Source: Pegea sp. RAD2-039
Taxonomy: Eukaryota; Chordata; Thaliacea; Salpida; Salpidae
Assembly (NCBI GenBank): GCA_034620365.1
Contig: JAQGEQ010000192.1
Coordinates: 548,501 to 612,500 of the forward strand
Length of the DNA: 64,000 nucleotides
Reading direction: 5' to 3'
Notes under the pieces: generated by a model
What the model saw: only the letters and a program-made list of their open reading frames with translations
What the model was told of the DNA's origin: nothing
Database searches by the model: none
Shown: piece after piece, positions 1,975 through 62,489 of the stretch
Layout: every line of letters begins with the position of its first letter
Position numbering within the stretch: the stretch's first letter is position 1
Position numbers and translations under genes: made by a program

Positions 1975-1989
1975 AAATAAGTCTTTATA

Positions 1990-3128: not shown

Positions 3129-3139
3129 TAATTATTAAA

Positions 3140-10411: not shown

Positions 10412-13400
10412 CTAGAGTACCTCACTAAGAAAGGTCATCTTTAATGTCCCGTCTGCTCCACAAGTAAACAAATAATCATCAGTAACATGAGCTTGCATCA
10501 TTCCCGAGCCGAAGTTTCTGAACAGAGACGATCTGGGGTGTTGGTTCTCATTTGCAAACACCAACGCATGTGATTGACAATCCCATATCTTCATCTCACC
10601 GTTAGCAGATCCGGTAATATAAACCCCACGTGATTGGTCGATGGTAATACATTTAATCGAAGTGTCATGAGCCGTGTAAGAATGAAGAGGAGACTGAAGA
10701 CACCGTTCATCATAAACAACGATGTGTCCAGACTTACTCCCTGCAATCAAACATCTTTTGTCATTCATATATTCGATACATGAAACTCCAGTGTTTTCAA
10801 AAGCGATGAAATCTGTGAAAAAATCGATTATTTTCTTCCTTAAGCTTCAACCCTAATCTTACCTTTGATTAAAACACTTTTTTTAGGCATTAAAGTGTCC
10901 CAAATAGCGATATTTTTGTGATTGCTGGACATACCACATGTAGCAATACAAGTAGTAGATGAAGACACGAAACAACAATCACTAGTGATTCGATTGTGAC
11001 AAAGATGTTGGAAACAAGGCTTTCGATATCTTCCTACTTGCCACAAAGAAAGATATCCATCGCCGTCAACAGCAGCTAATTTATTGCCAAGTTTTGAAAA
11101 GTACAAGTTGCAGACCTTCGAGTACAGACCACTGGGCCGATACTCACCAATACGATGTTGGTGTCCCCACTCCCAAATACTTACTCCACCATCTCGCGCG
11201 CCTATGACGTAATAGGGTAAAGTTGGATGAGCGTCCATACGTTTGATTCCTGGTATAGGACGTTTGACCAGCACAGAAACGCCCTGGTCGTTGTGAGGTA
11301 GTCCAGTGTCTGGCCATGACATTGTCTTGCTGTAATCTTCAGAAATGATTTTATTGTTGCTAGGTGATGACGTATCTTCGATGTCATCGATCCAAACCCA
11401 CCAATCAGAAGCGAGTAAAGAGGTAAGTTCAATTTCTTGAAGATCTTTAGATGAAGCAACTGATAAAGAGTTGCTGCTGACGTTATTGATACAAAAACTG
11501 GTCACGATATCCACATCTTTATGGACAATCCTGATTTTATGGCGACCACTTTCGACCATGTCTTCATTTCCACAATTCAATTGGTTTTTGTCCTGGTCCA
11601 GACTAGTTGGTTGAAAATGGAAAATATATTTGATGAAGGTTGATCTTAGTGCCTCTGTAGCAACTAGATTACACCACAACTGTTTAGCAGCTCTCAAAAG
11701 ATGTCCTTTGCCTTCAAATGGGGTGTTATCAGCTTCTAATATGGCTTGATATCGAAACAGGGCGGGTCTTCGTACCCCACTTTCTCCACTAGCCCCACAA
11801 TTAGGTAATAACTCATCAACACAAACCCATGAAGATGATTCCAATTCATCAACTAGTTCCTGCTGCCAACAAGAGATGGATCGAAGAAGAGCAGCAAGAA
11901 GAGATGAATGAGAGTTGATCTCTTTCAGATCAATCCCTCCGATCCCAATCAACATCTTTACATCTTTCAAAGTCTTCTCAACTATCACTAACTTCAATAA
12001 TCTCCATGAATAAGAAGTTGTATCTAAATCAGCGTCGATGACGTCATCATCCGCTTCAATGACGTCATTATCTGCTTCACTGACGTCATCATCGGATTCA
12101 CTGACGTCATCAGTTACTTCAATGACGTCATCATCACCCAGCAACCACCGCCAAACACTAGTAGTCGGGAAACTTATGACGCTATGACGTAACAACACAG
12201 TTTCGCCAACAATCTTCTTCCAACCTTCTTCGTTCATTTCACATCGATTCAAACGTAACAAAGTGATGACGTCATCACTGTTCATAGCAGTCACCATCAA
12301 TGAAATGTAAATAGCAACGACCGCTTCACACAATGACGTCATCAGCTTCGCGCGCCTATCACTCGTCATCCAATCAACTTGCCAATTTGGAGTGACGTCA
12401 TTGTCAGTGGTGACGTCATCATCGAAATTTAGTAGCTGGCCAATGAGTGTCGAAAGCGTTGAGGCGTGACGACAGAGCAGTGTGGTTTGTGATGACGTCA
12501 TCAGTGTCGACTGCTCGCGCCTTGTTGAAAGCACGTAGCGCAAAATGTCAGATGTGACGTCATCAAGTACACGCAGCGCGTCGTACAAGAAGCTGCGTCG
12601 CGTCGACAACACACGAATAAGTGGAAGCGGATGTGACGTCATCGTCGCGTCTTGTAATGACTCTTGCAACAACATCAGCAACTCGACTTTCAATGACGTC
12701 ATCAGCGACAATTCATGTACACGACAGTGTGACGTCAGTGCCCAAATAAAAGAGCGATGACGTCGAAGCCATGCGGGGCGATCTATTACGTCATCAACGA
12801 CGTCATCAGCAGCAAATAAGCGGTTCATCATCGAAACTGAACGCTGAAGCCATTTAAACAAAGATTCTCGCATCTTTTGATCGTTACTATGACAACCCAC
12901 GTGCGCTAGTGACGTCATTTCTTCGAGAAAAATCTTCCAAACGGCAATCTTACGAATTTGATCGATAAAAGCGTCACAGCGGGGAGCTGCCACAGTCGTG
13001 ATGACGTCAGCACTTATCGATGTGACGTCATCAGCACTTGCTTGTGACGTCATCTCATCATCATCACTCCAGCTCAACTGAAGCTCATCTTCCTCTTCAA
13101 CTTCCGGTTGACTCCAATCAATAACTTCCACTGATTTAGCGACTTCTACTGTGACGTCATCATCGGTGTCACAGCTGATTGCAGCGAGTTTTTGCAGAAC
13201 ATTCAACGTCATCAACGCCTGACCGCTACGAAGATGATGAATCGCGGTTTGAAAGATTACATCGCGCTCTTTTGATCTTCGAGCTTTTGTGAGCGCCATC
13301 TGGTGGTCAGAAGTGCGTTGCAACTTCATCAGAAGAGGATGAGAACTCAAAAAGAAGTAGAAGTCACATCGATCGGTGACGTCATCAGCGCACGAGTCTT

Positions 13401-16400
13401 CCAGAAGCACATCAATGGATCGGTTGTAATCTCCTAGCATCCAATGAGCGATGCTTCGAAAGAAGCAATCACTGATGACGTCATCAGCTGTGATGAATTT
13501 ACGCAAAACGCGATGAAACTCGACGTCATCATGACGTAATAAGCGCGCGATGACAAGTGCAAGTTGAAGATCGTGCATTTTAGTGACACAAACATCAATT
13601 GCTTCAGCTGTAGCGTTTGCGAGAAGAAAGAATGCAGCAGCTTGCGCGAATCGCTGCAAACCCAACAGAGCGTAACCATTCGTCATCGCCGCCTTCTTCC
13701 ATCTTTCTTCAGTGAAATCATGAGAAAAAAATTGAAAAAATTTATCGTTTTTGCTACTTTTGAAAAGAGCGCATAAGACTTTCTTCCTATTAAGAGCAAG
13801 ATAGTAAAGAGCTGCATCTAAAGGATCATTATTCTCCATGAAAGACACTCTTGCTAGCCTCTCTACAAGATTTTGAAGGACTTCTTTGGATCGGATCCAC
13901 CATCCTGCTCCTAATGACTTCAATTCTGACCACTTAGGGGCACCTTTTCGGACACTAGGTGCTAATGAGAGGATTTCTTCTTCAGATTCTGAGTGAAAAG
14001 CCCAAGCAAAGTGAAATGGGCGTAATTCAGATTTAGTGCCCCTGTTTAAAGGTTGAGATGCGATTAAAGAGAAGTGATGATGAAGAGCTGTTACAAATCG
14101 AAGTCCACATTCATCTAGGGAGCTAGTCCCACCTCCTAATGTAGCATATCCTCTACCAGATGTTGTTAAACTAGTCACGACTGTCTCCTCATCATTTACT
14201 CCAGCAGCAGAAGACTCCATCAAGCTCACAGTACTTGCTAAAGCCATTAACTTCATCTGATCTAAACTGCTCACTCCAACTAACTTGTGATGAACCAGAT
14301 ACTCGTTGATGACTTTACAGTGTTCAATCCCAAAGTATCCGGACTTCATCTTCGTCAGATCAATCATTTCTTCGTTTTTTGATCTTGTTGTTTTATCTGA
14401 AGTGAATCCTAATAACTCTTCCAGCTCTTCATCATTTGAGAAGTCATCTTGTTCATCTTTTGTAGTAAATAAGTCCTCTTGATCTGTGTCTTCAACTGCT
14501 TCAGTGTTTTTCTCATATTTTAATCCTTCAATTTTAGAATTTTGTTTAATCAACGAATGTAGGTAGATAGGTTCAAAAAATTTCAAAAAAATCTCTTCAG
14601 ATTTATCAAGAGTTTCATCTTGAAAACTAGATGAAGATTTTAAATCTACTGATTTGATTCGATTGATGATAAAAGCTAAATTGATCAAAATATCTTTCAC
14701 AACATCAAAGCGTCCACTATTCATCAGTTCCATGAGATTATGAGGGTGGTATTGAGGTATTGATGAAGCAAATCTGTTTGCTAACTGAAACACATTCGTA
14801 TCTAAATAATCAGAATCTCTCTTCACAATCGTCTGATCATATTTCAAATTATCTTTATTTATCCAAGAACTAAATACAAACATTTCAGTAAAAGTACCAA
14901 CAACTAGAAGCCCTCCAAAACACCATGATATAACCAAACCTCTCGCTACACTTACATCATCAGTGACGTCATTGTAAGAGCAAGGTCTGATGAAGAAACT
15001 TAAAATTTGAGTCCAGTAATTACCATGAAGCTTAGATTCATCGTGATAATCGATGAAGTTGTTGTTTTTATTTGGTGATTTTTTTAAACTTATTGTAATA
15101 TTTTGATTGATAGGAATGAATATTTTCAAAATGTTTTGGAAACTAACCGCCAAACAGAAGTCACCATTTTCCATTGAGAGCCATTTCATGTTGAAGTTGG
15201 TAAGATCACTTTTAGAGGAGTTAGTATCAAATGATTGAAGAGTAAACTCATCTTGGAGTTTCCATGTCTCACCTCCACTTGATAAATTCTCATAAATAGC
15301 AAGTTTGTAAGCACAGTTAGCAGTTTCTTCTAAGTACAAAACCCCCATTAGAGTCATATCAGCAAATGATGTGTATATGAGTTGATGTCGAAGAATAAGA
15401 GTATTTTTTTCTGATAATTTGATGTTTTTATTCCAAATTTTCCAATCGTAGTTGATTGATGAAAGGTTTGCGGATAAGAAAACTACTTCACCAGTTGTGT
15501 AAGTGACACATATCTGATATGGAATATATGAAGTAGAGGATGAAAGAGTGTTCCATGAAGTCCGGAAGAGCCCCGGAACATCATTACAAATTGTTGATGA
15601 GATGGAAGATATTTGAAGATTTTTTAAAGAATTTAAAAGTTGTTTAGATAATTTGGTGACTTTAACATTCATAGAAGTTAAAATTGCAGAAATTCTTGAA
15701 AAAGAATCAAATTCATCTTCAGTATCCGTTGTGTCTTCTGAATCTTGAGAATATTTTTGATCAGATTCTTGAGTAGATGGAAGTGTAAATGTGACTCTCC
15801 ATGTATGGATATGAGTTTGATCCTGATCTCGTTCAGCAATGATTACCAAAGAACTCAAATCATCTGATATCGAATCATTTACTCTTGATTCACAAAAAAC
15901 ATCAAGAAATAATATTTCGCCCCAATTTTCAGTATCTTCAATTGAATGAAGATGCAGAAGACATCCAGGATGAGTTGATGATTGTTGAGATACAAGTTTA
16001 AATGTGTCTTTGTGATCACAAAAATCAAGTCCCTGAAGAACATTCCTAGCATCTAAAATTGTTTGAAAAATATGAATGGAATTTTGATGAAGTGTTACGA
16101 GAGCTGTACTGACGCACGTGTTGTTCTTGTAATTGTATAAACCGGAAAATACAGTCGGGAACCAGGTGACATGATCAAATTGATATAAATCAGTTCTCAT
16201 CTTTGTCAACTCAGATAAACCACCAGAAAAAGACAAAGCACCAATTGAATCTACACTCCATAAAATAAGCTCATTACTTTGATATTTATCATCAGAAGAT
16301 TGATAATGAGACGAGCTTAGAACAAGAGGTAGAGTTGGATGAGATACAATGTTGTTAAGATGATGACAGTGTCCACAACATCTAGTTAGATGAAAAACAC

Positions 16401-17889
16401 TAGACACAAGAAGTAATTGAAGAGGGTCAGCAAAACAGAGCTGCCAGATATTTAAGCTTCCATCACTATGTTTGCTTAACAACCGATAATCACAATAAAC
16501 TGATTTTTCACAAGATTTATTTTCTACAACATCCGCTTTTAGGCTGATACAACTCGCAGAGTGAAGAATATTCTGTTCAATTGATGTATTTTCAAAAAAA
16601 ATTGGAAAAGATGACATTGTACGAGCATCATTAACTGGAAAAGCTGTTGGTATTCTTGATGAAAATGAAATTTGTGGTTGCCTGATTTGATTTAAGCACA
16701 TAGAATCAAGCCATTCAATATGCCACATTAACAGAGAACCATCTGCGGGATGAATCGCGAACAAAGCGTCTCTGGATTTCTGCCAAGTATCAATAATTTC
16801 TTTGATAAATTTTGGTAATAAAAGGTGTTTTGGTTTTTCAAAGGAGTCAACATTGAAACTGTGTTCACTTTTATTACTATATTCTTGTATTTGTGATAAA
16901 CTTTTATAGAATTTATTGTTTAAGAAATGAACTGTAAAAATAGAAGCTCCATATCCATCTTGACTCTTATGGGTCTGGTCTGGTAAAAATGGTAAAATTG
17001 GAATGTCTGTTAGAGGGTTTATAGAAGCACTTAAATGAAAATGTCTACTCGTGATAACAGATGATAATTTTTTAGTTTCAACTGCTTTAGTTGAGTTCAC
17101 ATGATTATTAAGATTAAAACTCCAAGCATGACTTTGAGGTAAATGTGTTTCAGACCACAATCTACAAATATGATCTTCAGAAGAAGATATCAAGATATTA
17201 GGAGACCTTTGCTGACTGTTTATATATAAAGCTTTTCTCCATTCAAAGCTGGTAACAATTTGAGGATGTTGTAAGAATGAATAAGTAAAATATGATAATA
17301 TTGTCGATGATATATAACTTTTTTGGTACCATACTTTAATCGTTAAATCTTTTTCAGCTAAGGAAGCAAACACAATTGCTTGTGAATAAGGGGCAAAATC
17401 TAATTGAATGAACTTTGAACCTAATGAACTTTCCCAAATACATTCCCATTTACATACAGTTTCTTTTTCAATTTCTTTTATAGTTTTATTCCATAGAGTA
17501 ATCTGATTTGAACCAAGTAATAAATGATTAGCAGCAGAATTCCATTTTACAATTGAAATAGGAATATTTTGTGGTTTCACATCAAATTCATAATAATTAG
17601 TCCAAATATAATCAAAAGTAATTGCTAATGAGTTTATGATTGGTTTATAAATAACAATTTTTGATCCATAACTTACAATAATTTCACCATTACTTTCACT
17701 ACAATCTAAAGCTGTAATAAGCATTCCATTTTTTTCAGTGATTACTTGAAGTGGTTGTTGATTTGATGTTAAAATCACTAAATCAAAACCTGATCCATAA
17801 GCATAAAAAGTGAAATTATTCACTCGTCCTATAGAATAACAATTGTTACCTAAATTAACTGAACCAGTAAATACCTGATGTTGTCTCAT
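10412..17889 (-). CDS. DMXL: DMXL / rabconnectin-3 alpha, WD40 V-ATPase regulator
   Basis: Two coding exons, 10863-17889 and 10412-10812, joined by GTAAG...CACAG, give about 2475 aa (vertebrate DMXL proteins are about 3000). The start Met-Arg-Gln-His-Gln-Val-Phe-Thr-Gly matches the conserved family N terminus. N-terminal WD40 blades are followed at about residues 1360-1450 by the Rav1p_C domain (Leu-Gly-Leu-Gln-Arg-Phe-Ala-Gln-Ala-Ala-Ala-Phe-Phe-Leu-Leu). C-terminal WD40 repeats end in Cys-Gly-Ala-Asp-Gly-Thr-Leu-Lys-Met. Family members work with WDR7 to assemble the vacuolar H+-ATPase (RAVE complex) on endosomal and synaptic membranes. Oddities: a 7-kb exon in a family that usually has dozens of exons, and residues about 1450-1960 are riddled with Asp-Asp-Val and Met-Thr-Ser tracts written by TGACGTCA motifs. 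A CTAG just before the ATG suggests a 5' UTR intron. Confidence 0.95.
12035..13540. repeat. Dense cluster of TGACGTCA palindromes inside the DMXL coding exon
   Basis: About 22 exact TGACGTCA copies, plus near-matches, in 1.5 kb, mostly as GATGACGTCATC or TGACGTCATCAG. The palindrome contains TGA, so only two of the three frames tolerate it in coding sequence. The protein shows exactly those readings: Asp-Val (T-GAC-GTC-A) and Thr-Ser (TG-ACG-TCA). Confidence 0.9.
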
Positions 17890-20800
17890 TCTAGAAACTA
17901 GAAAAAAATAATTAAACTTTTATTAATCGTTATTATAAAGAAATTAAACTATAAATTATGATTATTAAAAACTCATGTATAATATACTACAAAAAATTAT
18001 ATATTAAGCTACTGATTTATATATTAACATTAAAGTATAAAAACAATTAGAAATTTGTAAATTGTAACTTTTTAAATCAACTTCATTGACCTTTAAGTTA
18101 AATAACTAATTTTTAAGAAGCTTTGCAATTTACTAATACTTAATCTATAATAAAAAAAGCTATAATAAAAGCAAAATTCTTTATTTTATAAAAGTTTATT
18201 GATAGCAGTTTTTATGTTAAATTTAACTTAATTAGTTGTAAGATATTTTTTAATTCTAAACTTAATATTCAAATATATTAACATATAATTATTATTATAA
18301 CTAATGCTAAATAATTATAAATTTCTAGCAAAAGCTTAAAGTAAGTAAAATATATTACAAGACAATCATTAAATTTAAACTATCAAAAATAAAAGCTGTT
18401 TGTGGCAATCAGCAAGTATTTTAAGAACATAAATAGTTTGAATTACCTTTCACTTACTTTTAAAACAATTAATATGTCAATTAAACCATAAAGAAAACCT
18501 AAATCAAAACTTTTAGAATTTGCTAGAGTCTGTTAGTAAACACAAAAGTCGATTTTAATAAAATGCACTAAAATGGCTTTTTTTGGTCATTAAAAGTCAA
18601 ATGGTATTGCGAGCAAATAAATTAACATAAATAAATTATTTCTATTATAAGCAAATTACTTTAATAGCTTTTGGCTTCAGCTTTTTGATAAATAGGTAAG
18701 AACCGTTGAAAACTTTATATTTTTTAATAATCATAAAAACATTAAATAAATCCGACAAACAAAGTCAACTAGAAACCAAAATAAGAATAATCTTAAATTT
18801 GACTTTCAATATTTTACTTCAAAAATTCTTGTTGTAGAATCTTGAAAACCGACATATATGAAAGATATGTAAATATGCTAGAGTCGTAAAATTTTTGTAC
18901 TTTAAAATGATATATGAAAAAAGTATGACAGTTTAAATTAGCTTTTCAACTTTATTTTGAAATAACTAATTAAAACCTAATTATAGATCTAGTTTCATAT
19001 TGCAGTTATAAGTAATTTTGAAATTTTTAGGACTTGTATAATTAACAAACAAATACTGAGAAAGAATTGTTTGACTCAATTGTAGAATAGATGAATGAAA
19101 ACTTTGATTTCAAAAATTGAATTAATAGTTCAGTGTCTCTTAAGTTTTATCTACTTGGCTATCAATTTTAGCTCACCAATTATTCTACGCTTTCAATAAT
19201 GAATGAATTCTGATATTATGAAAGCATCGCAGCATAATAAAGCAAACTAATTGTGAATAGAAGAAAGTTGAAAGATTTGAAAAATGTTTTAAAGATCTCA
19301 GTAAAACCTGATAATTTTCACAATATAAAAGACTGATAGAAAAGAAGAAATAAAAAAGCAATCTCTGGTTATAGATCTTAATTTTATGAAGAGCTTTTTT
19401 TATTCAAGAGTTTTTTTTAAATTTTTTTACAATTTTATCAAATTCGAAATTATGATTTCCATTGTGTATCTGGAGCTAGCTGACGGTTGAAGCTTCTTAT
19501 AAACATTATCAAAAATTAAAAGTCAATCTAATCAAGCTTGTAGAGAATAATTGGTTGTAAATATTGAGAAAGACCTTTACATGTTTGCCGAAAATTAAAC
19601 TTTTTTGGACTTTTATTGTTACTCCTTATAGACTTATCAAATCAGTCAGTTTTTCTGCAAAATATCTAGAAATACTTTAGAATCAAAAAAATACTTAAAA
19701 AATCAGCTTTGAAAGAAACTTGTTAAAGCTTTTAAAAAATATGAAAAGTTTTAAATGGAAGTGTTTATTTGCAACTAACTTTCCACTTTCTGATTAAAAC
19801 TTTTCTATTAACTTTTAAATGATTTCTAAAATATCAAAAAAATTAACTTGTATTTAGTTGAATGAAAATGTGAAGAAACCGTAATTTGATTGGCGATCTT
19901 TATAACTTTGTAAAAAAATATTTATGGTATATAATCTTATTTTCAATCTATGACAAAATATTCTTTAAATTTGATTACCAAATTTTTTATGCAAAAAAAT
20001 ACTGAAAAACCAAAACTGTTTTCTTTATTATTATTCAAGCATTTAAATTGGTAATTTCTAAAAGTAACTTTTTTGAATATTTTTCTTCCAATAGTATTTT
20101 TAATAAGTAGATAACAAAACAAAATTAGTTTGTAAAGTTCTTAATATTTTTGATAATTCATGAATTACTATATTATAATAATAATTGTTGCAAATATATC
20201 AAGGTTTCCTTAAAACTAAAATATGTAACTTCAAATTAGTTCTATATTATACTAGTTTAAAAATCTAAATATACAATTTTTAAAAATTTACAATAAAATT
20301 TTTACATAATACCTTATGAAATATATAAAAGTAGTTATTTGAATTTTTTAAAAAGTTAGTTAAAACGATTTTATAACAAATAACAATTAGTGAAATAACA
20401 ATTTATCTTGGAATAGAAACTGTAAAATATTTTCTAATGAATGTGTGTAGGAAAAGTCATATTGTTGATTTTGTGATTACTTCTTATAGTCGAGTAATCT
20501 TTTTGTTTACTTAGATACTGAACTTTTAATCATATCTTGAATTAAGTTTTATTAAATTAAGAAACATTAACATTTGGTTTGTTCATATGTTGTAACAGCA
20601 AAGCAGATGAAGTATTCACGTAAAATTGTTTGATATCTTAAAACAATAGTACAACTTATTTTGTGTATTTTAAGACGGCTTAAACGACAAATAGATTTTC
20701 TTTTAATAACAACCGATTAAAACCTTAATTTTTATTTCTTATTTAGATTTAATTTTTTTTGTTAAATATTTAAAATAATAAAAAGACATGCAAAGATATG

Positions 20801-26450: not shown

Positions 26451-29400
26451 ATGATGATGATGTCACAAACACGAAACAACCCGATTGAATCAACATCTTC
26501 ATCATCATTTGTACTCGGATCAAATGTCTCGCAAACTTCTGGAGCGATCTTTAGACAATCTTCCGATAAAGATCACAATTTTTCTGCCAATCAAAACTCA
26601 CCAGATGGAGGCTTAAATGAAGACCCGCCGGAAAACGAGCTTCCAAAGCCGGTCGACTACTCATCACCTTCTCAAAGTCCAATCAATACCGTTTCAAGCA
26701 CAGATTCAACAAAGGTGCAAGTCGACGACAGAAATCGCGTAGAAGCGCGCGACCTTTCTAGGATTGAAAATGGCGAAGTTGCTACGGAGATAAAGATGCC
26801 ATCCAACAACTTAAATGAAAACGGTTCTACTTCAACAAAAAAGCGAGCACGGGTCGAAAACATTGTCACCAATATAATGGCCCGCGACCGTTCCCATGGT
26901 GACCGCACGCCACAGTCAATGGACGGCGATGATGGTGACAATGCAATGATGACGTCATACCGCGGGAAAGTTCAACAGGGCAAGGTAACAAAAGTTAGTT
27001 GAAAATAAAAAAAATAAAAAATTGAAGAATGAATTTGAGAGGTTTTAGAATCAGAAGAAGAAGATACCGAGCGAGTCTTTGCGTCGCAGCGAGTTCTTTG
27101 TCTTCCCGACTCACGATTTGAAGCTGAGGGAGCAACAAATCAGTGAAAAGATAACTTCGCTCATCTCAGGTTTGAGATCTTTTCTAAGATCAAAATGGAG
27201 TCGGCCAACCAGAACGATTCATCCTCAGGTTTCCAAGGCAACAAAATCGCTGCAAGCGAAGCTCTTAATCTTGTGTTAGCCAATCAGCGTCGTGCTGATG
27301 ACGTCACCGCTTCACCGCCTTATTATGATGACGTAGTCAACGACGATTGGTCACCAGCGATTAAGAAGCCGCGTTTCCATAGAAACTATCAGGCTAAGGT
27401 CCGCGTAAGCGCGGTCGCCAATGGTGACGATGACGTCATCAACCACTTAGTGGACTATGGGACTTTGGTGGAATCATTGAAGCGTGAATTGATGAACGCT
27501 GTGGAGACGATCGCTGAATGTTCAGCGCGTCGTGTTCTCGAACGTTTATCATCAAAGACGAAAAGCGGTGATGGCGTCATCAATAAAGGTTTGAAGTCTT
27601 TGGTTGATTTGACAACTCTTCAAGACATCTTCATCTTTTTTTAGATGTTGCAACAAAAACTAACGACGATTCATCAAAATGTCGCGACGTTGCCACTAGC
27701 AGCAGGTCTCCTAGTTGCGGGGAAATCCCGGTTCTGTGAAAACTCACTTTTGATTTTTTAGGTCGCCGGATGTTGGGGAACAAACAGACGCCCTTTCGCT
27801 TGTCATCAAATCGCGCGCGAGCTCGTCTTCCAGCGCGTCGTCCCCCTCACCCAAACGCTCTGTTACTCCGTATGATGATGACGTCACTGTCGAAAACGAC
27901 AACATGACGTCATCAGCGTCGATGAAGTTCAGCGACAAATACGCTTCTCTCGTACGCTGCATTGAGAAGTCGACAGTGATGACGTCAGAATCGGGTGAAA
28001 AGTCGAATGGACGCGGGTCCGCGTTCTGGGCGCCGATGAAACGCGATTCAGAACACTCACCAGTTACTGTAGCAACGAGTAGTGACACGTCATCAGTAGA
28101 TGCATCTTCAACAGTTTTCGCTCAACGATCATTTCTACACCATTTGCACCAACATCCTTGGCAACCAAACAGCTTGGCGACTGTGTTGGCAAGGCAACAA
28201 CAACAGCAGCAGCAACTCGACTCGTCAACGTTGCTATGGCAGGCCAGACAGACGCCAGAATTCAAGTTGAACGCAGCAGCAAATCTACCCCCCATCCTCA
28301 AAACACAACAGTCGATGACGTCACAGTTCGCCGCGTCGCCTTTTCTCGGCCGTTCGCACCTCGCCTCACCCTTCTATCTCCCCCTGCCAGTATCTGCAAC
28401 TTCGCAGTCTCCACCGGGATTTTCTTCGTCCCAATTAAACTTCCCACTTCTGCAAAATTTTCCGCAAGGAGCTTTCGTAAATGCGCTGGCCAATAGCGAA
28501 TGTCGAAGAATTAGGACAGCGGACCAGTCCATTGGACGATCTGTCTCTGCCAGGACCACAACTCGAGAACCTGGGAAGCATCGTCAAGGTCTGCATCTTT
28601 TTACTGTTTCTATTTTGAATCTAATTTTTTTTTTTCGTGAAATTTTTGATGTTTTAAAAACTGATTAGTTGACCTTTGACCTGATTATTTCAATTAAAAA
28701 GTTAAAAAAAAAATTTGAAGTTTTTGTTACAAATGAAAACTTAATAAACTTTTTTTGCAGATTATTCAAATGGAAATTTAGATGTTAGTCCTTATTCAAC
28801 AGCTTCGATATCCTTTCAACAAATTGTTCAAAAATTACCTGATAATAATTAAAATCAATAAAAGTTTCATAAAATCTGAAATTTCAAAACTTTTTATTTC
28901 TTAACTTTGATTTTAATTACATCCAAGAAGGACTTACACCACAACATTTGAAGAAAGCTAAACTAATGTTTTTCTACACGAGATATCCAAGCGCAAACAC
29001 CTTAAAAACCTACTTTTCAGACGTCAAAGTGAGTTAGATCAACATTTGCTAATCACAACAACCACCAGTTGTCAGCTCCTCAAAAGATACTTTTGTGTAT
29101 CTTACTGCGTGAGGTGCTTATTAAAATCACAAATTTTGTGATGTTAATTGAAACATCAGCTTCTGACTTATAATCGACTGCGGCTTCGGCAACCTTTCAG
29201 TTGCTTAGCAACCAGCACGTTTTTTCCTTCATATAATTTTCTGTCTTGATAATCACGTGATGACGTCACTTGTGTCTTTTTTATGTTTGCAGTTCACAAG
29301 AGCAACCACCTCGCAGTTAATCAAATGGTTCAGTAATTTTCGTGAGTTTTATTACATACAAATGGAGAAGTTTGCACGTCAGGCACTCACAGAAGGAATC

Positions 29401-36915: not shown

Positions 36916-36919
36916 TTGT

Positions 36920-39715: not shown

Positions 39716-39717
39716 AA

Positions 39718-39850: not shown

Positions 39851-40353
39851 CAGAACAAAGTGATATCGAGGCCAGAATAGTAAAAGTCCATTTGGTTGAA
39901 AGTGGAAATGTCGAGAGCTTTATTTGAAGAGGTATTTTCATCCTTTTTATCTTCATTTGTTTGTGAAGTCAGCAACAAATTTTCGAAGAATAGATTTCAG
40001 TATTTATTGTGTCTAGGTGCTGCTTATAACAGTTTGAAAAAATTGTTTTTCGTTTTACTGCATTTCAATTTAAAACTGGAAAGCTATCTGTTCCTATATT
40101 TAAAAAGTATATTATGTTAAGTTCAGGCAGAATATGTTTGTATTAATAAATTAAATATTGGAAAAAATTGAATTACATTTAGTCAATTTTAAGCAAAATA
40201 ATTATAATTGGCAACCAATCATTAAAGAAAAAATATTAATAAATTTTTTTGGAAACACTTAAAAATCTTTCAAGGTCATAAAAACTTACGACCATAATAG
40301 GCCATTTTCTGACATGTGTTTACTTTTTGAGGTTTTCAGCTAGTTTTTTTGAC

Positions 40354-42490: not shown

Positions 42491-42493
42491 ATT

Positions 42494-46026: not shown

Positions 46027-48786
46027 ATGGTCGAAGAAGAAAATAAAGATCATCAATTTGGTCATCTGCTGCTTCCAATCAACATCAACCAGCATGAAGA
46101 CCTCTCAAATAGGTCTGAGAGGTCAAATTTTAAATTTTTTTGTTTGTAAACCCTATTTATCAGGAAAAACTCAACAATCGACCGCGAGCTCTATCTGCGG
46201 TTTGAATCCCTAGAGTCGGAGCTGATAATCGCTCCTGCGATGAACAGAGCCGCGATCTTGAACTTCAGAGGCGTGAGTCGATCGCTTAGCGGCTGGTTTC
46301 CATGACAACGAGTTTGTTTGAAGTTATTAGCGTTCCGCTTGAATAAACTTGAAATCGCGAAAGAGAATTTCGAGAGAGTCTTAGAAGAGGATGAGGAGAA
46401 TCTAAACGCGATCCAGAATCTCTCTTGCATCACAGGAGGTGATCCGGGAAGATTTGAAGATCTCATGACTCTGGTAATTTTAAAAATTAAAATTTTCAGC
46501 TTTCAGGGTTTCCAAATAGTTTTTTGGAAATTTTTAAATTCTGATTTTTAGACTTTGTTGGATGTCAACAAATGGAAGAACAACCGGAAGATCGCGAGTA
46601 GTCTCGCTGAACAGGCGATCGCGTTCGCTTATGACGTCATGATCACAAATGATGAGGATCGTATCCAGAAGCTGGAAGAGTCAATCCAAATGTTCGATCG
46701 AGCATTTGATATCGGATCAAGGTCTGGATGTTGATCTTCGGATGTTGATCTTCTGATGTTGATCTTCTGATGTTGATCTTCGGATGTTGATCTTCTGATG
46801 TTGATCTTCTGATGTTGATCTTCGGACGTTGATCTTCGGATGTTGATCTTCGGATGTTGATCTTCTGATGTTGATCTTCGGATGTTGATCTTCTGATGTT
46901 GATCTTCTGATGTTGATCTTCTGATGTTGATCTTCGGACGTTGATCTTCGGTTGTTGATCTTCGGATGTTGATCTTCTGATGTTGGTCTTCGGATGTTGA
47001 TCTTCTGATGTTGATCTTCGGACGTTGATCTTCGGATGTTGATCTTCGGATGTTGATCTTCGGATGTTGATCTTCTGATGTTGATCTTTAGATATTGATC
47101 TTCGGATGTTGATCTTCGGATGTTGATCTCTAGATGTTCATCTTCGGATGTTGATCTTCTGATTTTTTCAGTACGATGACAAAAACGGAAACTTTTGGAT
47201 GGTATTATTGGATGTTGATCTTTTTGATGAGAATTGATGATCTGATGAAAAGAAGTGCTGATCCTGAAATTCAAAAAAATCGCCTTCCCATCTTTAATCG
47301 TGCTCTTTGTGTCTTGAAAGAGCTCCAGAAGTCGGAGGAGCAAATATATCAAGCGCTATCTTCATCCCTTCTCGGTCAGTAAAGATCTTTACTCCAAACT
47401 TTTTAATTTTCTAAATTGCGCCACCTAGTGACGATTTTTATCATCTAGGAGTTATGTTAGAGCGACAGCAAGTGTTCAAATCAACTCCAATCTCCATCCA
47501 TGATTGTGGATTCACTGGTTTAGAGTCTTTACAATGTTTCAGTCGATCAATTCAAATAGCTGAACCAAATATCAAAGTTTTGAACAAGTTATCAGAGGTA
47601 GACTCCCATTAAATCCGTCAAAATCTCATCAAGATCATTTCAAGGTGTTCCTGAACTTCGAGAAATATGAACTGGCTCTAGGGACTGCAAATATGTCTCT
47701 TGAGATTGATCCTAGCAACCATCACTTGCTTCATATGCGCGCGCGGATTCACACGACTATTTACATGCGAGTGAGTTTAGTGTCTCGACTTGATGACGTC
47801 ACAGTATCAACGCTTCGGAGTGTTTATGGATGTTGCAGCAGTTTTAATAAATTAATTTTTTTCTGGTTTAAATTAATTTGAAGATTTTTAAAGGAGCTAG
47901 CAAGATGTAAAATCGAATCATGTGTGATGCCAGCAAGAGAAGTCCTATACAAGGCAAAAGAAGATCTTGAAAAAGTCCTCATCCAGAAACCATCTCTACG
48001 AGCTTATATGGATATCGGACAAGTTAGTTGTTAACAAAAGTTGAAAAAGATTAATCTGAGATGAACAGACTTCCTACTACATCGGAGTTGACTCTTTATC
48101 TGAATTGATGTTAGTTGATGAAGATTCAATCAATCAAGCACTTGTGTATTTCTCTAAAGCTCTTGATTGTGAAAGAGGAGAGAGTTTACCGGAGTTACAA
48201 GTGTTACGAGGCAACTGTATGAGATTAATAGTAAGATCATATACATCTTAATCTTCATCTTTAATCTGTGTCTTTGTAGGGAGAAGAAGATAACGCTTTG
48301 GAATGTTTTAAAAGATCTATTTTACTAGAAGCAAAAGGTTCTGTAAAATCTGAAGCTTTTATTTCAATGTTAGAGATTTATATGAACTGGTAAGCTAAAA
48401 ATTTTAATTAGCGGATGTTGAAGACTTCATGTATCTCTTTTAATCTTCTAAATCTCTGATTAATGACTTCTTAAATAAGATTAACTTCTTTATCTTCTCA
48501 TAAAACTGAAATAGTTTTTAAACAAATAGGAAACACGTGCTTACATCCAAACTATCTCTACTTTAGGTTCTGTCAAAGTTCTGAAAAGAAACGAGAAGAA
48601 ATAGTAGAAGAAGTAGATGAATGGTTACAAAAAGCACTTCAAAAGTTTGATAATGGTGCATTAAAAGTTCATTTTCGAAGTTTAGTTCATCGTCAACCAC
48701 AACAAGTTCTACTTTTGTGTAAAGGAACAATTAAATCGGCCAAATTTGGACTATCACGAATTTGCTTTCAAACTTTTTCTGTTTAA
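46027..48786 (+). CDS. TTC22: Tetratricopeptide repeat protein 22
   Basis: Eleven exons (46027-46112, 46164-46272, 46324-46473, 46552-46721, 47172-47374, 47449-47597, 47645-47770, 47894-48022, 48069-48230, 48280-48389, 48567-48786) join in phase to 537 aa, close to vertebrate TTC22. Diagnostic blocks: Ser-Leu-Ala-Glu-Gln-Ala, Leu-Glu-Arg-Gln...Thr-Pro-Ile-Ser-Ile-His-Asp-Cys-Gly, Lys-Glu-Asp-Leu-Glu-Lys-Val, Tyr-Met-Asp-Ile-Gly-Gln, Tyr-Tyr-Ile-Gly-Val-Asp-Ser and Leu-Pro-Glu-Leu-Gln-Val-Leu-Arg-Gly. TPR helices such as Ala-Lys-Glu-Asn-Phe-Glu-Arg-Val-Leu-Glu-Glu-Asp occur through the protein, so it should be a protein-binding scaffold. Its molecular function is not established. Intron 4 is filled by a 14-bp minisatellite; introns 1, 2 and 8 are only about 50 nt. 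Confidence 0.93.
46726..47160. repeat. 14-bp minisatellite in TTC22 intron 4
   Basis: About 30 tandem copies of ATGTTGATCTTCKG, with few differences between units. Each copy carries one GATC. Because 42 bp equals three units, the minus strand stays open and would encode a 14-residue Arg/Ser/Glu-rich repeat (frame 46717-47352). I take this as a by-product of the repeat, not a gene. Confidence 0.9.
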
Positions 48787-49110
48787 TTTTTTTCTAATTT
48801 TTTTTTTTGATGTAAATAAATTTATTTCTGAGAAAAATTAGAAAAAAAATTTTCAAGATTTTTTATAAAAAAAAAAAGAAGCATTTTAACATAAACGACG
48901 AAACGTGACGTCATACTCGCGCGCGTGTAGCTTCATCACCTTATTGTGTCGAGATAGACAGAAATCTACAATCCAACGAATCATCCACATCTTGGGAAGA
49001 ATGAAAAGAGCAAACAGCAAAAAAGAGGAATAAATTAATTTACAAAAAAAAAGCGCCAAATAAGGTGATTGCGCGCGCGGAAACATGCAGAAAATCGTGA
49101 CGTCATCGCT
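48787..49110. other. Spacer between convergent genes
   Basis: Shared 3' region of TTC22 and the next minus-strand gene. TGACGTCA at about 48,905 and 49,099. An AATAAA-like run lies after the TTC22 stop. No other feature. Confidence 0.5.
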
Positions 49111-52100
49111 CTATAAGTACGTGACGTCATCGCTGTTTGTGACGTAATAGCCTTCTATCGCGCTGCCACTGCGCGCCAATGAGGAATTTGGCCATTTTCG
49201 GCCACTAGTGTCGCTACTGCGTCGCGTGAATTTTGACCATCGCGACGCAGCGGTGCCGTCATTTCCGGAAGTGGATTTGTGACTTCCGGTGGTCATTTTA
49301 CGGAAGTTGCTGATGTTACGCGCGAGCCGCGAACTGAGATTTCGTTGTGTCTTGATCTTTCGTGGATCAGCTGAGGCGGTGGATGAAGATTTGTGGAGAT
49401 TCTGACCACTAGGTGGCGGAGGTGGCTTCGAAGAGTTACGATTGGAATTAAAGGAAGGTAGTTGTTGATTTGGGGATTTCCCGGAACTGCGACTAGATTT
49501 GTTTAAATTTCTTCTGCAAAAAAAAATGAAAAATTAGGGGGGCGAAAATTCAAATTTATTTCGCCTCGTCGCGCTCTACCGATGACGTCATCAACTCACA
49601 AGTTGTTGTCAAACACTTGAAACCTATTAAGCACACACATATATTTGAATAATTCACAAATTTGCCGGTAAAAATCGAAAAAATCAATTGAAAAACTACA
49701 AAGAAGGTTAAAGGTTGATTGATGACTTACTTTAACTGATTGTTAGCAAGATGGTTAGTTGCTGGTGTTGCTGGTTGCTTAGCACTAACCATAGGACCAT
49801 ATTGGTTGCTATTGGTCCGTTTAGTGACTGCATATGCTAATGGAATGGTGGTATTGATAGGTACTACGTAGACTTCATCTTCACTGTCAGATTTATTTTC
49901 TGTTTTTGTTGTTGTTTGTTTGTTGTTGATTGAATCATTAATTGATTGAAGTGATTGATAATCAGGCATCGTCTTCTGAAGATCAGCGACTCTTTCATCC
50001 ATAAGACATTTCATCTTTTGAACGTTGTCATTAATTCGTGTGAATTTGTAAAGAATTTCACGATCTAGTTCACGTAGTTTGTGCTGAAAATCAATTTTGA
50101 AATATTTAAACTTTTTGTTAACTATTAACTTGACGAGTCACGTGACCTGACTCGATTTTTGATATTTCAAAAAAATATTTTAAAGAAAATCTCGATAAAT
50201 ACATCAAAAGTATTTTGCGCGAAAAAATCAGTTTGAAAATAGAAGCTAAGAACTCGATAAAGAAGTATCGATTCGATGACATTTTGATAAATAACTCAAT
50301 TTAGATTTAATTTTTCAAAATATTTTCTTTTTTTTATTTGAACAAATTTTGGAGAAAATATTTTCTAGTTTTTGAATTTTAATTAACTGATGAAGTAATT
50401 TTGGTAATTAGTTCCTTTCAGGAAATAATTTTCAGTTTTAAGTGATGAAATCGAAACCTAGTTCTTTACTAACAGTTTAATTACCGGGGGCGTTTTATTA
50501 CTTCGAAAAAAAAAAAGCTTTTTTGTAAATCTGAGAAAGAAACTATTGAATAAAAAATAAGTAAATCAAGTGAAACACCTACGTTTGTTTTCATCACAAA
50601 CCAAAACCAAATAAATTAAATATAAATTACTGAAAAATTCAAAACAGAAAAAATCTCTAAAAAAATTATCGTCAATTTCACATTTCGCCCAATTCCAAAA
50701 AATTAAATTAAAACATATAGTGACGTCACGATAACGTGCAAACAAAAAAGCAAGCTCCAGAAGACACGATGATGTCATTCTCGTTATATTCTTAGAAGTC
50801 ACGTGACTTCATATAGAAGGAACTAGGAGATATCTTTGTATGAACAGATTACATTTGCCTATTATGACGTCACGCCAGACACATTTGGTCACGCTTGAGT
50901 GATTTTTCGGCAGATTTTCTAAATTTAGCACAATGGTTTGAGATTAAAAAGGGAAATTTTGAGAACTGCAGATAAGAAGCAGGTAAATAATTGGCTAAAT
51001 TGGATTAAGTTTAAAAAAAACTAATTGTAAACACTGACATACATTTTCTACTTCCTTCTACTTTCGAAATAGATTTTATTTAAAAAGTGTTGGGTCGCTA
51101 ATAAATTATTTATTTTTTGAAATTTTGAAGAACATTTTGCTGCGTCAATTGCATTTCATGAAAAGTAATTAGTAATTATAGAGAAAGTCATATAATGAGA
51201 GCTTCATTATTATTCATAACATTTCATTTGAAAAATTCATTATTTTATTTAATAAATTTGATTTACTTAAAAAAAATAGTTTTAAAAACTTTTATAACTA
51301 ATGAAAAAATAGAATTAAAAAATTATTAATTACTAAATTAATAAATTTGTTTCAACAAATTAATGTTTTTATTTGTAATTAATAAATTAGTCATAGATAA
51401 AAACAGTCAGCAGATCATATGAAAGATGGTTACATTTTTTTGATTATCTAATTTCTCAATGAAAAGTAGACAATGAAAATGTAAATATATCAGCAGACAA
51501 CTGAAAAATTTACACTCAATAAAAACTTTTTTAGAAAAAAGTCCACCATGAAATTTATTGAGTAATATTTGAAGGAGTTATTTTTTATACAAAAAATTTT
51601 ATAAAAAAAAATTTAAATGAATAAAATAAGAAGAGTTAGAAATAAAAACTATTTCCAGGATTAGAAAAATGCTAAAAAGTTGTTCTAATTTATTTAAACA
51701 TTTATATTTAGTGTTTTTTTGTAAATCAATAACTTATATTCAAAAGTTAAATGTTTATAAATTGATTCAATTATGTCTAATTTAAGTAATAATAAAAGTT
51801 TAAGTTTATAGAAATTCTCTCCTTAATAACAAATATAATTATAACTTTTTTCAACTAAAAAATAATTTATAAAAATAAGGAACTATATTATACTTTAAAG
51901 AAAATAATATTAAGTTTAATATATATAACTTACTGAAACTATAATTATATATCTTAATACCCAACATAAAATTAAAACAATCAGTTTTCAATCAAATATT
52001 TTAAATTTTTTTAACATATCAAAAAAGTTTTGAATTTCTGGTAAAAAATAGTATTTATTCTTGACTCAAAATCACATTGTATTTAATAACTATTTAGAAA

Positions 52101-55938: not shown

Positions 55939-57664
55939 ATGACAATTTCAGCCTGCGGAATGGTTGGCTATACTCTTTTAGGAACTTTTGGAGCTTATGT
56001 CTTGACTTCTGTCGTATTTTTGAAATATCCTCAAATCCTCCATAAAAAGAAGAAACGGAACTTTTTCTGTTCTCACATTAGTCACAGAGGAGGTAGATAT
56101 ATTTGATTTATTGTTGTTACAATTGTTGGTTTTTAATTCATTTATTGATGATAATTCAATTTATTAAATTATTTGATTCATTATTAATAATTTTATTCCT
56201 TTTTTCTTTCATTTTTAGCTGATTTTTAAATAATATTGAATCTAAATAGTTTGATATATTTGAATAGTATGACAGAAGATTTTACCGCATACGTAAATGT
56301 CATCTGAAGACAAACTAATTTATATATTTTTATGTAGTCTACAGTAGGGTTGTTTAATTCTATTTAATAAGTTGATGACTTATAAGTTATTTTAAAGAAT
56401 AATAATAACGAATTATTGTGACAAGTAGGGAAATTAAAGTTTTAAATTAAATTGTAGTAGAGATTTTTGCATCTACATCATTGAATTATATATTTGAATT
56501 TAAACTATTTGTGAATTATAAAGGTGCTGCTGAAAGGTTAGAAAATACAATCCCAGCTTTTCAACAGTAAGTTTTTTTTAAATTGTTCATCATTTTCTAA
56601 TCTTCATATTTCTCAAAGTGCTTTTACTTGTGGAACACATATGTTTGAACTAGATGTGCATCTCAGCAAAGATAAAGAAGTTGTTGTATGCCACGATGCA
56701 GACTTACAACGAGTAACAGGTGTTCAAGGACTTATTAGTGATTATTATTATGAGGTAAAGATGACAACCAAAAACTGATTATAAAAATAAATCCTATCAA
56801 TCAAGGAACTGCCGCGACTCAAAAGCGTTTTAGACGTCACATTTGCTAAAGACACCCAATGCGCTTATAAAGAAGACCCTGAACGTAAGATGCCTCTTCT
56901 AGAAGATGTCTTCCAGATGTTTCCTCATCTCCCTATCAACATTGACATCAAAGACAACGATGATGAACTCATAGAAGCCGTAAGTGTGTCTCGCTTCTAA
57001 TGACGTCACAAACACTTTGCTGTCTGTAGACTGTTGAACTGGTTGCTAAGTACAAGCGCGAAGATTTGGTTGTTTGGGGCAACGGCAACGCTGCAGTGGT
57101 CGAAAAACTGCGCGCGAAGGTGATATGACGTCACGTTGCTAATAACGTCACCAGTTGCTACGCAGAATGCAAATGTCGCGACGTTTTTCTCGTCAAAGCG
57201 AGTCGCTTTGTTAATTTTGAGCTTCTATCTCGGATTTCTTCCCTTTCTCAACATCCAAGAGAGCTTTCTGGAGGTCCCTTTGATCGATTCAATATTTCAG
57301 TTTGTGTCCCTAGACCCCCTACGCCCCATTTTCATGTCTTCTCTTTGTAGGATGAGGATTGAGTTGACGTCATCACAGAAGTTGCTCGTAAGATTCGGCG
57401 GCTTTCTTCTCAACAGCAGCATTCTGATTGGTCATTTGAAAGCGCGCGGAATTCCGGTGAGTCACGTGACGTGACAGTTTGAAGTGAATGACGTGGCTTT
57501 TGTTGCAGACTTACTTTTGGGTACTAAATGACGAGGCTAGCTTTAAAAAAGCCTTTGGACTAGGTGCTGAAGGTGTGATGACCGATTACCCCTCAAAACT
57601 AGCCACGTGGTTGGATAATAACCCTAATTACAAGCACGCGACACATTTATCGCGTCACTTATGA
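55939..57664 (+). CDS. GDPD1: Glycerophosphodiester phosphodiesterase, GDPD1/GDPD3-like
   Basis: Exons 55939-56092, 56524-56566, 56619-56754, 56806-56979, 57030-57119, 57166-57299, 57351-57456 and 57509-57664 join in phase to 330 aa (vertebrate GDPD1 about 314). An N-terminal membrane segment (residues about 8-28) is followed by His-Lys-Lys-Lys-Lys and Ser-His-Arg-Gly-Gly (residues 48-52), the GDPD catalytic start. Then Phe-Glu-Leu-Asp-Val-His-Leu, Val-Cys-His-Asp-Ala-Asp-Leu-Gln-Arg, Asn-Ile-Asp-Ile-Lys, Val-Trp-Gly-Asn, and the final Gly-Val-Met-Thr-Asp-Tyr-Pro. A second hydrophobic stretch (Leu-Leu-Ile-Leu-Ser-Phe-Tyr-Leu-Gly) is also a GDPD1 feature. These enzymes have lysophospholipase D activity on membranes, making lysophosphatidic acid and N-acylethanolamines. 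The 51-nt intron 57300-57350 is open in frame. Confidence 0.93.
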
Positions 57665-57940
57665 CGTCATACCCGCTATTCGAGTGCAATTGATCTAGCT
57701 GAACTAAAATATTTATTTCGTATTTATCTTTCAAATTGAACTTGATTATCGCTTCTAAATCGCTGCAATCGACAAATAAAACGCGAAGTCAGTTGTTCAC
57801 ATGACAACAAACAACTTGACAACAAATTCGATTTATTTTGTCGACAAAATTTAGTCAACATTTTTCGGCCGCCGAATGTTTCGCGAAGAGAAACCTGAAA
57901 GTAAATATTTAATAAAGAAGAAGATTAACTGGAAGCAGAA

Positions 57941-60900
57941 CTAACGTCTTGGTGGTAGATTAAGTGTTGCTAGTTGCTCATCAGACTCATCTTTTAATGT
58001 ATCTGATCCTAAAAAATGAAAAATATCGAATAAAATAAGTTTAGAAGCGATGACGTCACTAACCACCAGCTTGATAATTTGATTCTTCTTTCTCTTCATC
58101 TTTATAAAAGATTTTTGAAGTTATTTTGGTATTTGTACTTGATTCAGGTTGATCTTTGGTCTTTCTTGATCTTTTTGGAGTCTTAACTACAAATAAAAAT
58201 GATCAGAAAAACATCCTGAGTTGTTGAGACTTCAACAAACGTTTTTTTTTGAATTTTGGAACCTCAAAATCTACGCAACCCCATAAAACGTCGATATCCT
58301 TTTTAACAGCTCGTCGACTTCTGGGTGTCGTGATGATATTAGAAACACTAATATCAGAAAGTTCTGAAATTCAGAAATAAATTTCATCAAAATAAATTGT
58401 AAAAATGATTTGTAAGTTACATACTTGTAAAGATTTTTGTATCTTTCTTGCTCGGATTTGCATCAACTGAAGCAGTATCTTTCTGATCTTTATCATCAAG
58501 ATCAACATCTTTCTGATCTTTATCATCTGAATCAACATCTTTGTGATCTTCATCATCAAGATCAACATCTTTCTGATCTTTATCATCTGAATCAACATCT
58601 TTGTGATCTTCATCATCAAGATCAACATCTTTCTGATCTTTATCATCTGAATCAACATCTTTCTGATCTTCATCAACTGAATCAACATCTTTGTGATCTT
58701 CATCATCAAGATCAACATCTTTCTGATCTTTATCATCTGAATCAACATCTTTCTGATCTTCATCAACTGAATCAACATCTTTGTGATCTTCATCATCAAG
58801 ATCAACATCTTTCTGATCTTTATCATCTGAATCAACATCTTTCTGATCTTCATCAACTGAACCAGTATCTTTCTGATCTTCATCATCAAGATCAACATCT
58901 ATCTGACTCTCAGGAGAAAGATTTACATCTTTCTGATCTTTATCAACGGAACCAGTATCTTTCTGATCTTTATCAACAAGATCAACATCTTTCTGATCTT
59001 CATCAACAAGATCAACATCCATCTGACTTTCAGGAGAAAGATTTACATCTTTCTGATCTTTATCAACTGAATCAGTATCTTTCTGATCTTTATCAACTGA
59101 ATCAGTATCTTTCTGATCTTTATCAACTGAACCAGTATCTTTCTGATCTTCATCAACAAAATCAACACCTATCTGACTCTCAGGAGAAAGATCAACATCT
59201 TTCTGATCTTTATCATCAAGATCAACATCTATCTGACTCTCAGGAGAAAGATTTACATCTTTCTGATCTTTATCAACCGAATCAGTATCTTTCTGATCTT
59301 CATCAACTGAATCAACATCTTTCTGATCTTTATCAACTGAATCAGTATCTTTTTGATCTTTATCATCTGAATCAGTATCTTTCTGATCTTTATCAACTGA
59401 ACCAGTATCTTTCTGATCTTCACCATCAAGATCAACATCTTTCTGATCTTTATCAACTGAATCAACATCTTTCTGATCTTCATCAACTGAATCAGTGTCT
59501 TTCTGATCTTCATCATCTGAATCAGTATCTTTTTGATCTTCATCAACTGAATCAACATCTTTGTAATCTTCATCATCAAAATCAATAGATTTATCAACTT
59601 CCATTTCTTCTACATCATCTTGGATCACATTTTCATCTTCAAATTCTTCTACCAATTGAACATCTTTGTTTTTAGAAACAAAATCTGCTACACTAAAATC
59701 TTTGCTCAAATCTTTATCAGAGTCTTCATCATCTTCTAAAAGAATATCTTCAAAATCAGAAGAGACATCATCATCAGGTACAGTCACTTCAGATGGCTTC
59801 ACATCAATCATAAATAAACTGTCATCTACAAATTGAAATTGGTTTTCATAAGACACAATTTAGAGGAGATAGAATACCTTTTAATGATTTATTCTTTGGT
59901 TTCTTTTCAACTTCTTCAACTTCAATAAAAAACTAAAAAATTTGATGATTGAAAAATTAAAATTTTATAAAAATGATAAACTTACAGAGCAAAGATCATA
60001 AATGAAATCTATATTTGATTGAATAATCAGAAAATGAGATAGACATTCAGATTCCTGCATCTTTTCAACATATTTTTTTGTTCCTTTTTTACTCCTTAAA
60101 ACTTTATAAAAGTCCTTAGATGGTTTCCAATCTTTCAGATGTAATTTGATGGAATTAGAAAATGGACTATCACCATATAACAATATTGCCTGCAATAGTT
60201 TATAAAATAAAGTTGACAAATCAGAGAATATTTCCAAAACCTTTTTAGCTGCAAGACAAATTTTCACGAACATATCAGCAGGTTGTTCTTTCCAATCAGC
60301 TTTAATTAAAACTCTTTCAAATAAATCTTTCATTTCTTTCAAGCAAATAGTTTTATCAAAACCATCAAATGTCACTTGAGCAATACAATCCAACATTAGA
60401 CTTTTATCAAATCCTGTTAATTGATTGTTAAGAGGATTTAGTTGAAATTAGTTTAGAATTACCACAAATAAGTTCAAGATCTTTTAGAAACTTCAAACTT
60501 TTCATTTTTGAATGAAATTTCAACTTAAATTCAATCAGAATTGAGAAGATAGCACTAATCACATTGGAAACCTTCTTTAAATCTTTTTCTTTGTCCTTAA
60601 AACAAAAACTTATTTTAATATTTACAATAAAAATTTCTAATCATATTATCAAGTAGAGAAGTTATAAAAAATTTGAAACTAGAGATATTAAAATGATGTC
60701 TAATTATATAATCATAAAATCTAAAGATTGTTAAAAATTTAAAAAGCTCACCAGTTTAGGAAAGATGTTGGTTCGAATAAGAAAAAGATTCATAAGAATA
60801 TTTTTAGCAAACTGTTCATGAGTATATGAAAAGGGTAGCTTTTCTGATATCATATCAACTTCAATAATAACCAATCTAAAAATTAAATTAAAAAACGGTT

Positions 60901-62485: not shown

Positions 62486-62489
62486 TTAT

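Follow-up and report, generated by a model that had tools for sequence, protein, structure and literature searches.

Islands of one palindromic CREB/ATF-type octamer in a Pegea genome, possibly shaped by a word-specific fixation bias

Results

The DNA analyzed here is a 64,000-nucleotide stretch of the salp Pegea sp. RAD2-039 (assembly GCA_034620365.1, contig JAQGEQ010000192.1, positions 548,501 to 612,500 of the forward strand; referred to herein as the window), and its dominant feature is the palindromic octamer TGACGTCA, the word of the cAMP response element (CRE) that is bound by CREB/ATF proteins. A first-pass annotation had estimated by eye about 70 copies where chance would give one or fewer; the exact count is 70, with 0.48 (base composition) to 0.55 (dinucleotides) expected, which rules out chance or base composition as the cause, and no other 8-mer on the given strand is as frequent as TGACGTCA. 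The first copy begins at 12,039 and the last at 58,051. On the minus strand, the window contains a DmX-like (rabconnectin-3 alpha/Rav1) exon that is stop-free over 2,359 codons (10843..17919) and carries 22 of the 70 copies. Its best matches are the ENA proteins P0001 (35%) and P0003 (33%), together with dmX-like 1 of the tunicates Clavelina lepadiformis and Styela clava (32% identity each), which are the nearest named ones; the gene points to a fast-evolving tunicate. A search of the assembly for COX1 gave no match.

The copies gather in islands about 1 to 2 kb long and also along one apparent gene body. The densest island (12039..13483) has 21 copies within 1.4 kb of coding exon, including a tandem stretch of five copies at 21-bp spacing (12039-12130), and a lone copy lies elsewhere in the DmX exon (14964..14971). 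Fourteen copies (26950..30740) surround a stop-free plus-strand segment with a homeo-prospero domain (29209..29505; PF05044, E = 9.3e-36), 15 copies (31455..33803) lie in DNA without long open reading frames (ORFs) that is noncoding or unassigned, and groups of six (39820..41886), eight (46632..50872), and five (57001..58058) make up the remainder. Gaps of more than 3 kb without a copy extend over 1-12,039, 14,964-26,950, 33,796-39,820, 41,879-46,632, 50,865-57,001, and 58,051-64,000; they agree with the empty stretches that had been named earlier and add those at 41.9-46.6 kb and in the last 6 kb. Compared with an even spread, the density of pairs in the window was 3.7- to 7.2-fold at distances below 1 kb, 1.65-fold at 1 to 2 kb, and 1.0-fold at 2 to 4 kb. 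The first-pass annotation had also stated that this is not a normal promoter pattern, and this seems to be so in DmX, the only gene in which position can be judged. Of the 22 copies in its exon, 21 lie more than 4 kb from the start codon region, although an internal start site may lie nearer.

The excess is found across the whole genome (G000; 105,744,746 bases in 387 contigs), in which TGACGTCA occurs 27,792 times, compared with 969 occurrences of the same word read backwards, a control of equal composition. This is a density of about one copy per 3.8 kb, and the window, with one per 0.9 kb, is about 4-fold denser. Pairs of copies with 0 to 30 bases between them number 5,280 (reversed control, 0), which by our arithmetic is 23 times the approximately 226 pairs that an even spread would give. 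With one mismatch allowed, the genome totals are 64,917 for TGACGTCA and 28,668 for the control; the 24 one-letter variants account for 37,125 occurrences, compared with 27,699 for the variants of the control (means of 1,547 and 1,154 per variant). Since the variants remain near background, the excess lies mostly in the exact word, and the peak is sharp.

As a class, other CG-centered palindromes do not share this excess. In the window together with an unselected sample of five 10-kb pieces (L035-L039, with 0, 8, 5, 0, and 2 copies of TGACGTCA, respectively), the other 63 CG-centered palindromes summed to 69, near the 54.6 expected, ruling out a general enrichment of this class. Thirteen of the 69 were supplied by the E-box TCACGTGA (0.85 expected), and excesses at low counts were seen for GTACGTAC (4 versus 0.26 expected) and GCGCGCGC (3 versus 0.02 expected). 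At dense loci, the other CG-centered palindromes numbered 22 (19.1 expected), 9 of which were TCACGTGA, a word that is likewise high genome-wide (4,614 versus 237). Thus, neither of the two outcomes that the first-pass annotation had set against its own proposal, equal enrichment of other CpG-containing palindromes and a genome-wide count matching expectation, was found. In the same combined set of window and unselected pieces, CGCGCGCG was over-represented as well (5 versus 0.02 expected).

A second dense locus is a 10-kb piece of contig C24 (L049), by eye a coiled-coil giant gene, that was picked for holding several close pairs. It has 78 copies, of which 42 fall within plus-strand ORFs of at least 60 amino acids (5,309 bases) and 36 outside them (4,691 bases); at this locus, the one tested, TGACGTCA is equally dense in ORF and non-ORF DNA. 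Four more 2-kb places on the same contig hold 2, 9, 0, and 0 copies, which indicates that the density is patchy. Short tandem arrays with periods of 21, 22, and 26 bp also hold copies. No clear 10.5-bp helical phase was seen among the copies; the remainders modulo 3 of spacings of up to 300 bp were slightly uneven (63, 40, and 68). On contig C38 (L048, C38:685001-695000), a 1,740-bp unit is repeated in tandem about 4.4 times at about 99% identity, each unit carrying four CREs, one of which lies in an ORF reading SDDVIDTKY. At this level of identity, a comparison of the C38 units was uninformative as to gain and loss of copies, and the search for a second copy of window positions 27,000-31,000 returned only a 38-base match.

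The flanks of the word were examined in a pooled sample that was partly picked for motif sites. Of 254 copies, 216 conform to RTGACGTCAY (R left, Y right), bearing out the earlier identification of the octamer as the CREB/ATF consensus word; T stands at −1 in 7 of 260 arms, and beyond about 5 to 6 bases the flanks share little sequence. In the window, RTGACGTCAY fits 57 of the 70 copies. The earlier statement that most copies take one of two extended forms needs correction (GATGACGTCATC matches exactly in 10 of 70 copies and TGACGTCAC, in either orientation, in 37 of 70). In the pooled sample, the zone within 300 bp of copies contains 254 exact words (0.99 expected; about 257-fold) and 70 near-misses (22.5 expected). 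Enrichment of variants in this zone is 11-fold for TGACGTAA, 4.9-fold for TGATGTCA, and 0.6- to 3.7-fold for the other ten variant types, with variants at T1 and A3 at 1.0- to 3.7-fold. AP-1 and C/EBP were ruled out as targets, with TGACTCA at 0.7-fold and TTGCGCAA absent (1.2 expected) near copies. The flanks and the tolerated variants resemble the footprint of an ATF/CREB-type bZIP protein, a class that prefers R/Y flanks. At least 12 bZIP_1 matches are present in the genome; among the eight bZIP loci that were read, one was assigned by eye as JUN-like (L040) and one as CREB-like (L041, contig C14), the latter being a putative CREB-type bZIP exon.

On the sense strand, the motif is preceded by A in 20 of 22 DmX copies and in 14 of 14 copies at 26.9-30.8 kb; the corresponding counts for the other side are 9 of 22 and 4 of 14. 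At 31.4-34 kb, the two sides give 12 and 8 of 15, and the 10-kb piece of C24 has no clear asymmetry (56 and 49 of 78). The eight TCACGTGA words of the window start at 29253 (29253..29260, 8 bp from the start of a CRE), 29851, 32709, 35411, 40785, 50138, 50799, and 57462; six have a CRE no more than 100 bp away, and for two the distance is 555 and 1,615 bp. Among 15 ETS-CRE pairs, spread over 12 offsets, no peak of composite spacing was found.

The islands are CpG-rich and, as had been noted from the sequence earlier, GC-richer than their surroundings. With the motif masked, 500-bp bins with at least four copies (n = 7) had a GC content of 0.45 and an observed/expected (o/e) CpG ratio of 1.33, compared with 0.285 and 0.63 in bins without copies (n = 285), so that both measures by which a CpG island is recognized lie above the surroundings. 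Along the DmX exon, CpG o/e was 1.2 to 1.6 in seven dense windows and 0 to 0.9 in 22 of 23 others, the sole exception (1.15) adjoining the island. GC content at third codon positions (GC3), motif masked, was 0.40 to 0.57 in the island and 0.10 to 0.41 elsewhere in the exon.

The DmX exon also gives an indication of how copies arose. The exon was aligned with P0001, P0003, the Clavelina and Styela proteins, and three further homologues, and a copy was counted as gap-free if the motif, extended by three residues to either side, aligned without a gap to at least one of the first four proteins. Twelve of the 22 copies are in gap-free alignment and so arose by point substitution rather than insertion, whereas 10 are in or near gaps and may have arisen by either route; in the one gene examined, at least about half of the copies were thus made by substitution. 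By reading phase, 15 of 22 copies encode xDVx, 7 encode xTS (MTS or LTS), and none lies in the stop phase. Residues in the motif columns are identical to those of the four proteins in 12, 17, 17, and 21 of 78 to 80 cases, compared with 31 to 34% identity in the other columns of that stretch and 36 to 39% overall. The copies often replace residues found in related proteins, as in KLMTSLCE here versus KVLILLCE, KIMVLLCE, or KLIVLLCE in the relatives.

Discussion

By behavior, the nearest analogue of the flooding by TGACGTCA is the highly iterated palindrome HIP1 (GCGATCGC) of cyanobacteria; by molecule, the CRE and the M26 hotspot come nearest. HIP1 is evenly spread in cyanobacterial genomes, and palindromes of its type lie in coding as well as noncoding DNA. 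The octamer described here is likewise grossly over-represented genome-wide (27,792 versus 969 for its control) and occurs in coding and noncoding DNA, but it is clustered in islands, has bZIP-like flanks, and resides in an animal with a DmX-like gene rather than in a cyanobacterium. A further mark of the HIP type is a cognate methyltransferase that recognizes an internal sequence; DNA-methylase ORFs, which may or may not have such a specificity, are present in this genome. HIP1, too, is one exact 8-bp palindrome, sometimes extended on both sides, and an origin by biased repair has been proposed for it (PMC4390886). With the CRE, the identity of the word is complete. The CREs of mammals peak in the first 150 bp upstream of start sites, those of Ciona have no positional bias, and TGATGTCA is described as the lower-affinity methylation-decay form (PMC1796609). 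Here, in contrast, a coding exon and what appears to be a gene body are full of copies, at up to 78 per 10 kb. The ade6-M26 site of fission yeast, bound by Atf1-Pcr1, resembles our copies in being a CRE-like word that arose by point mutation within an ORF; it opens chromatin and activates meiotic recombination, whereas the full CRE in ade6 is reported to be neither bound nor active (PMC9775316). Vertebrate CpG islands, which are kept unmethylated by bound factors, share the richness in CpG and GC and the joint presence of CRE, E-box, and ETS words that accompanies them, although the densest island here lies within a coding exon. We file the flooding neither under HIP1 nor under promoter CREs. 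No report of such octamer flooding was found in searches of one open-licence library, which lacks most subscription papers; the accessible text of an Oikopleura promoter paper (PMC6389100) has no occurrence of CREB, ATF, bZIP, or TGACGTCA, and that of a Ciona promoter paper (PMC3333190) none of CREB or TGACGTCA.

The explanation that we put forward, tentatively and aware that it may well prove wrong, as the best for the excess of TGACGTCA is a fixation bias that acts on the word as a whole and follows bZIP binding in CpG-rich chromatin that is open in the germ line. Two suggestions of the first-pass annotation, a chromatin mark and a recombination or repair tract, enter into this explanation. 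A chance substitution that completes an ATF/CREB-type bZIP site (RTGACGTCAY, often TGATGACGTCA) would be fixed, and one that breaks such a site would be lost, through a weak but pervasive bias. A CREB/ATF protein would occupy the word in the germ line and would keep the island open and unmethylated, biasing which allele survives. The bias most likely comes from germline chromatin itself, with repair or gene conversion favoring the bound word, and not from the regulation of host genes; this is the least certain step. Both the indifference of the copies to coding sequence and the amino acid changes are in keeping with a drive by repair or conversion. The fixation-probability ratio is 18 genome-wide (24 × 27,792/37,125), corresponding to a scaled bias 4Nes of about 2.9, an order-of-magnitude figure that assumes equilibrium, formation from one-off words, and an equal decay rate at all eight positions. 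The values of 3.9 for the pooled sample and 4.5 for its islands are inflated by the way in which that sample was picked. By itself, GC-biased gene conversion would favor only A/T-to-G/C gains and leave T and A of the word free; it is excluded as the sole cause, since those positions are no less strict than G and C (T1 and A3 variants at 1.0- to 3.7-fold, the exact word at about 257-fold). A bolder form of the idea, in which the CRE word is a selfish, non-inserting element of a chordate that, with a germline-bound protein biasing repair or conversion its way, spreads by substitution, rewrites protein, and builds CpG islands as a by-product, seems to us improbable.

The competing account that comes closest, although we judge it somewhat unlikely, is regulatory selection: the islands would be cis-regulatory modules of CRE, E-box, and ETS sites in which each extra CRE is weakly advantageous for the expression of its gene in a very large population, giving unusually large homotypic clusters. 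CRE, E-box, and ETS words are typical promoter-proximal motifs of vertebrates, tunicates can have very large populations, and the scaled strength required is only about 3 to 4; near copies, CRE, TCACGTGA, and CAGGAAGT all occur above expectation, and 6 of the 8 E-boxes of the window have a CRE no more than 100 bp away. Selection of this kind is hard to reconcile with an equal density inside and outside ORFs on C24, with 78 copies per 10 kb of what by eye is a coiled-coil giant gene, and with the position of the densest window island, which occupies part of the last (3′) third of a coding exon and encodes residues that often depart from those shared by the relatives. A mutational rather than selective route, the shielding of the motif that the first-pass annotation had listed, would have a bound protein or absent methylation slow mutation both in the word and at CpG sites within the islands, letting random copies pile up. 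In its favor are the CpG o/e of the DmX island (1.2 to 1.6, against 0 to 0.9 in 22 of 23 other windows), the 4.9-fold level of the decay product TGATGTCA near copies, and the presence of DNA-methylase genes; a version restricted to CpG would agree with the raised CpG o/e of the islands. As the sole cause it is implausible, and we consider it quite unlikely: by our arithmetic, the mutation rate would have to be 20-fold (genome) to 80-fold (islands) lower at all eight positions, T and A included, other CG-centered palindromes hardly pile up at dense loci (22 versus 19.1 expected, 9 of them TCACGTGA), and protection alone makes no residue-replacing copies.

Two further routes fare worse. A ratchet in which a DNA methyltransferase marks TGACGTCA (or ACGT) and mismatch repair keeps the marked strand has been proposed for HIP1 (PMC4390886). 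The genome has seven long DNA-methylase ORFs (PF00145), and the two that were read are DNMT1-like by eye, one of them without a recognizable PCQ motif; against this, the high CpG o/e points to islands that are free of methylation. An 8-bp specificity is not known for metazoan DNMT1, and a ratchet is in our view very unlikely. A tiny mobile or template-switch process that inserts whole copies, close to the self-spreading element suggested earlier, could account for the 10 of 22 DmX copies in gapped alignment and for the tandem arrays of 21, 22, and 26 bp that contain copies. It was already disfavored by the 12 gap-free DmX copies, for which arrival by insertion as a mobile short element was rejected, and by flanks that differ beyond about 5 to 6 bp, and it has hardly any probability left.

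Several observations weigh against the word-specific fixation bias. Its strength was derived under equilibrium, and a recent burst of TGACGTCA may have occurred instead. In the DmX island, GC is raised at first and third codon positions but not clearly at second positions (GC2), so that the rise is not uniform; for a drive by repair or conversion, the missing rise in GC2 is neutral or counts slightly against it. Isolated copies (n = 20) have only a slight rise in CpG o/e (0.99 within 50 bp, 0.65 to 0.71 beyond), and a 2-kb place on C24 (L064, C24:12001-14000) breaks the CpG-rich rule, with two CREs at a CpG o/e of 0.11. Ten of the 22 DmX copies are in gapped alignment, and five copies belong to the 21-bp tandem array. 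The 25-fold and 18-fold enrichment of TCACGTGA and CAGGAAGT, respectively, near copies fits ordinary regulatory DNA. The −1 flank is asymmetric with respect to the sense strand at two places and not clearly so at a third, whereas a symmetric bZIP homodimer predicts no asymmetry. Recombination hotspots, finally, tend to lose their motif; one of the M26 type should erode its own through conversion, so that a drive must have the opposite sign.

If the bias is real, it would be a measurable force of whole-word fixation in an animal genome, with enough strength to alter residues of a conserved protein. The origin of CpG islands would become testable, as would the question of whether the binding of a transcription factor in the germ line can drive its own site to fixation. 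Such a bias would also be a warning that enrichment of a word in exons together with odd residues (DDV, MTS) can have a cause that has nothing to do with the protein.

Additional features of the genome and the window

The seven long single-frame PF00145 ORFs span 832 to 873 amino acids, with loci at C57:819728-826344, C249:1740707-1742050, C32:10146-38173, and C52:9209-10639 (L052-L055), and shorter matches were found on C262 and C49. The DNMT1-like ORF (by eye) of L052 keeps the PCQ and ENV motifs; that of L055 has neither, and its frame is open over 832 codons. In the window, fragments that by eye are reverse transcriptase-like, of the long interspersed element (LINE) type, lie at 4520-5065, 37629-37967, and 63498-64000; they are 83 to 91% alike and free of the motif. 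Two simple repeats are also present, one with about 31 copies of the 14-bp unit GGATGTTGATCTTC (46726-47163) and one with about 37 copies of a 30-bp unit (58461-59575) within a 480-codon minus-strand ORF.

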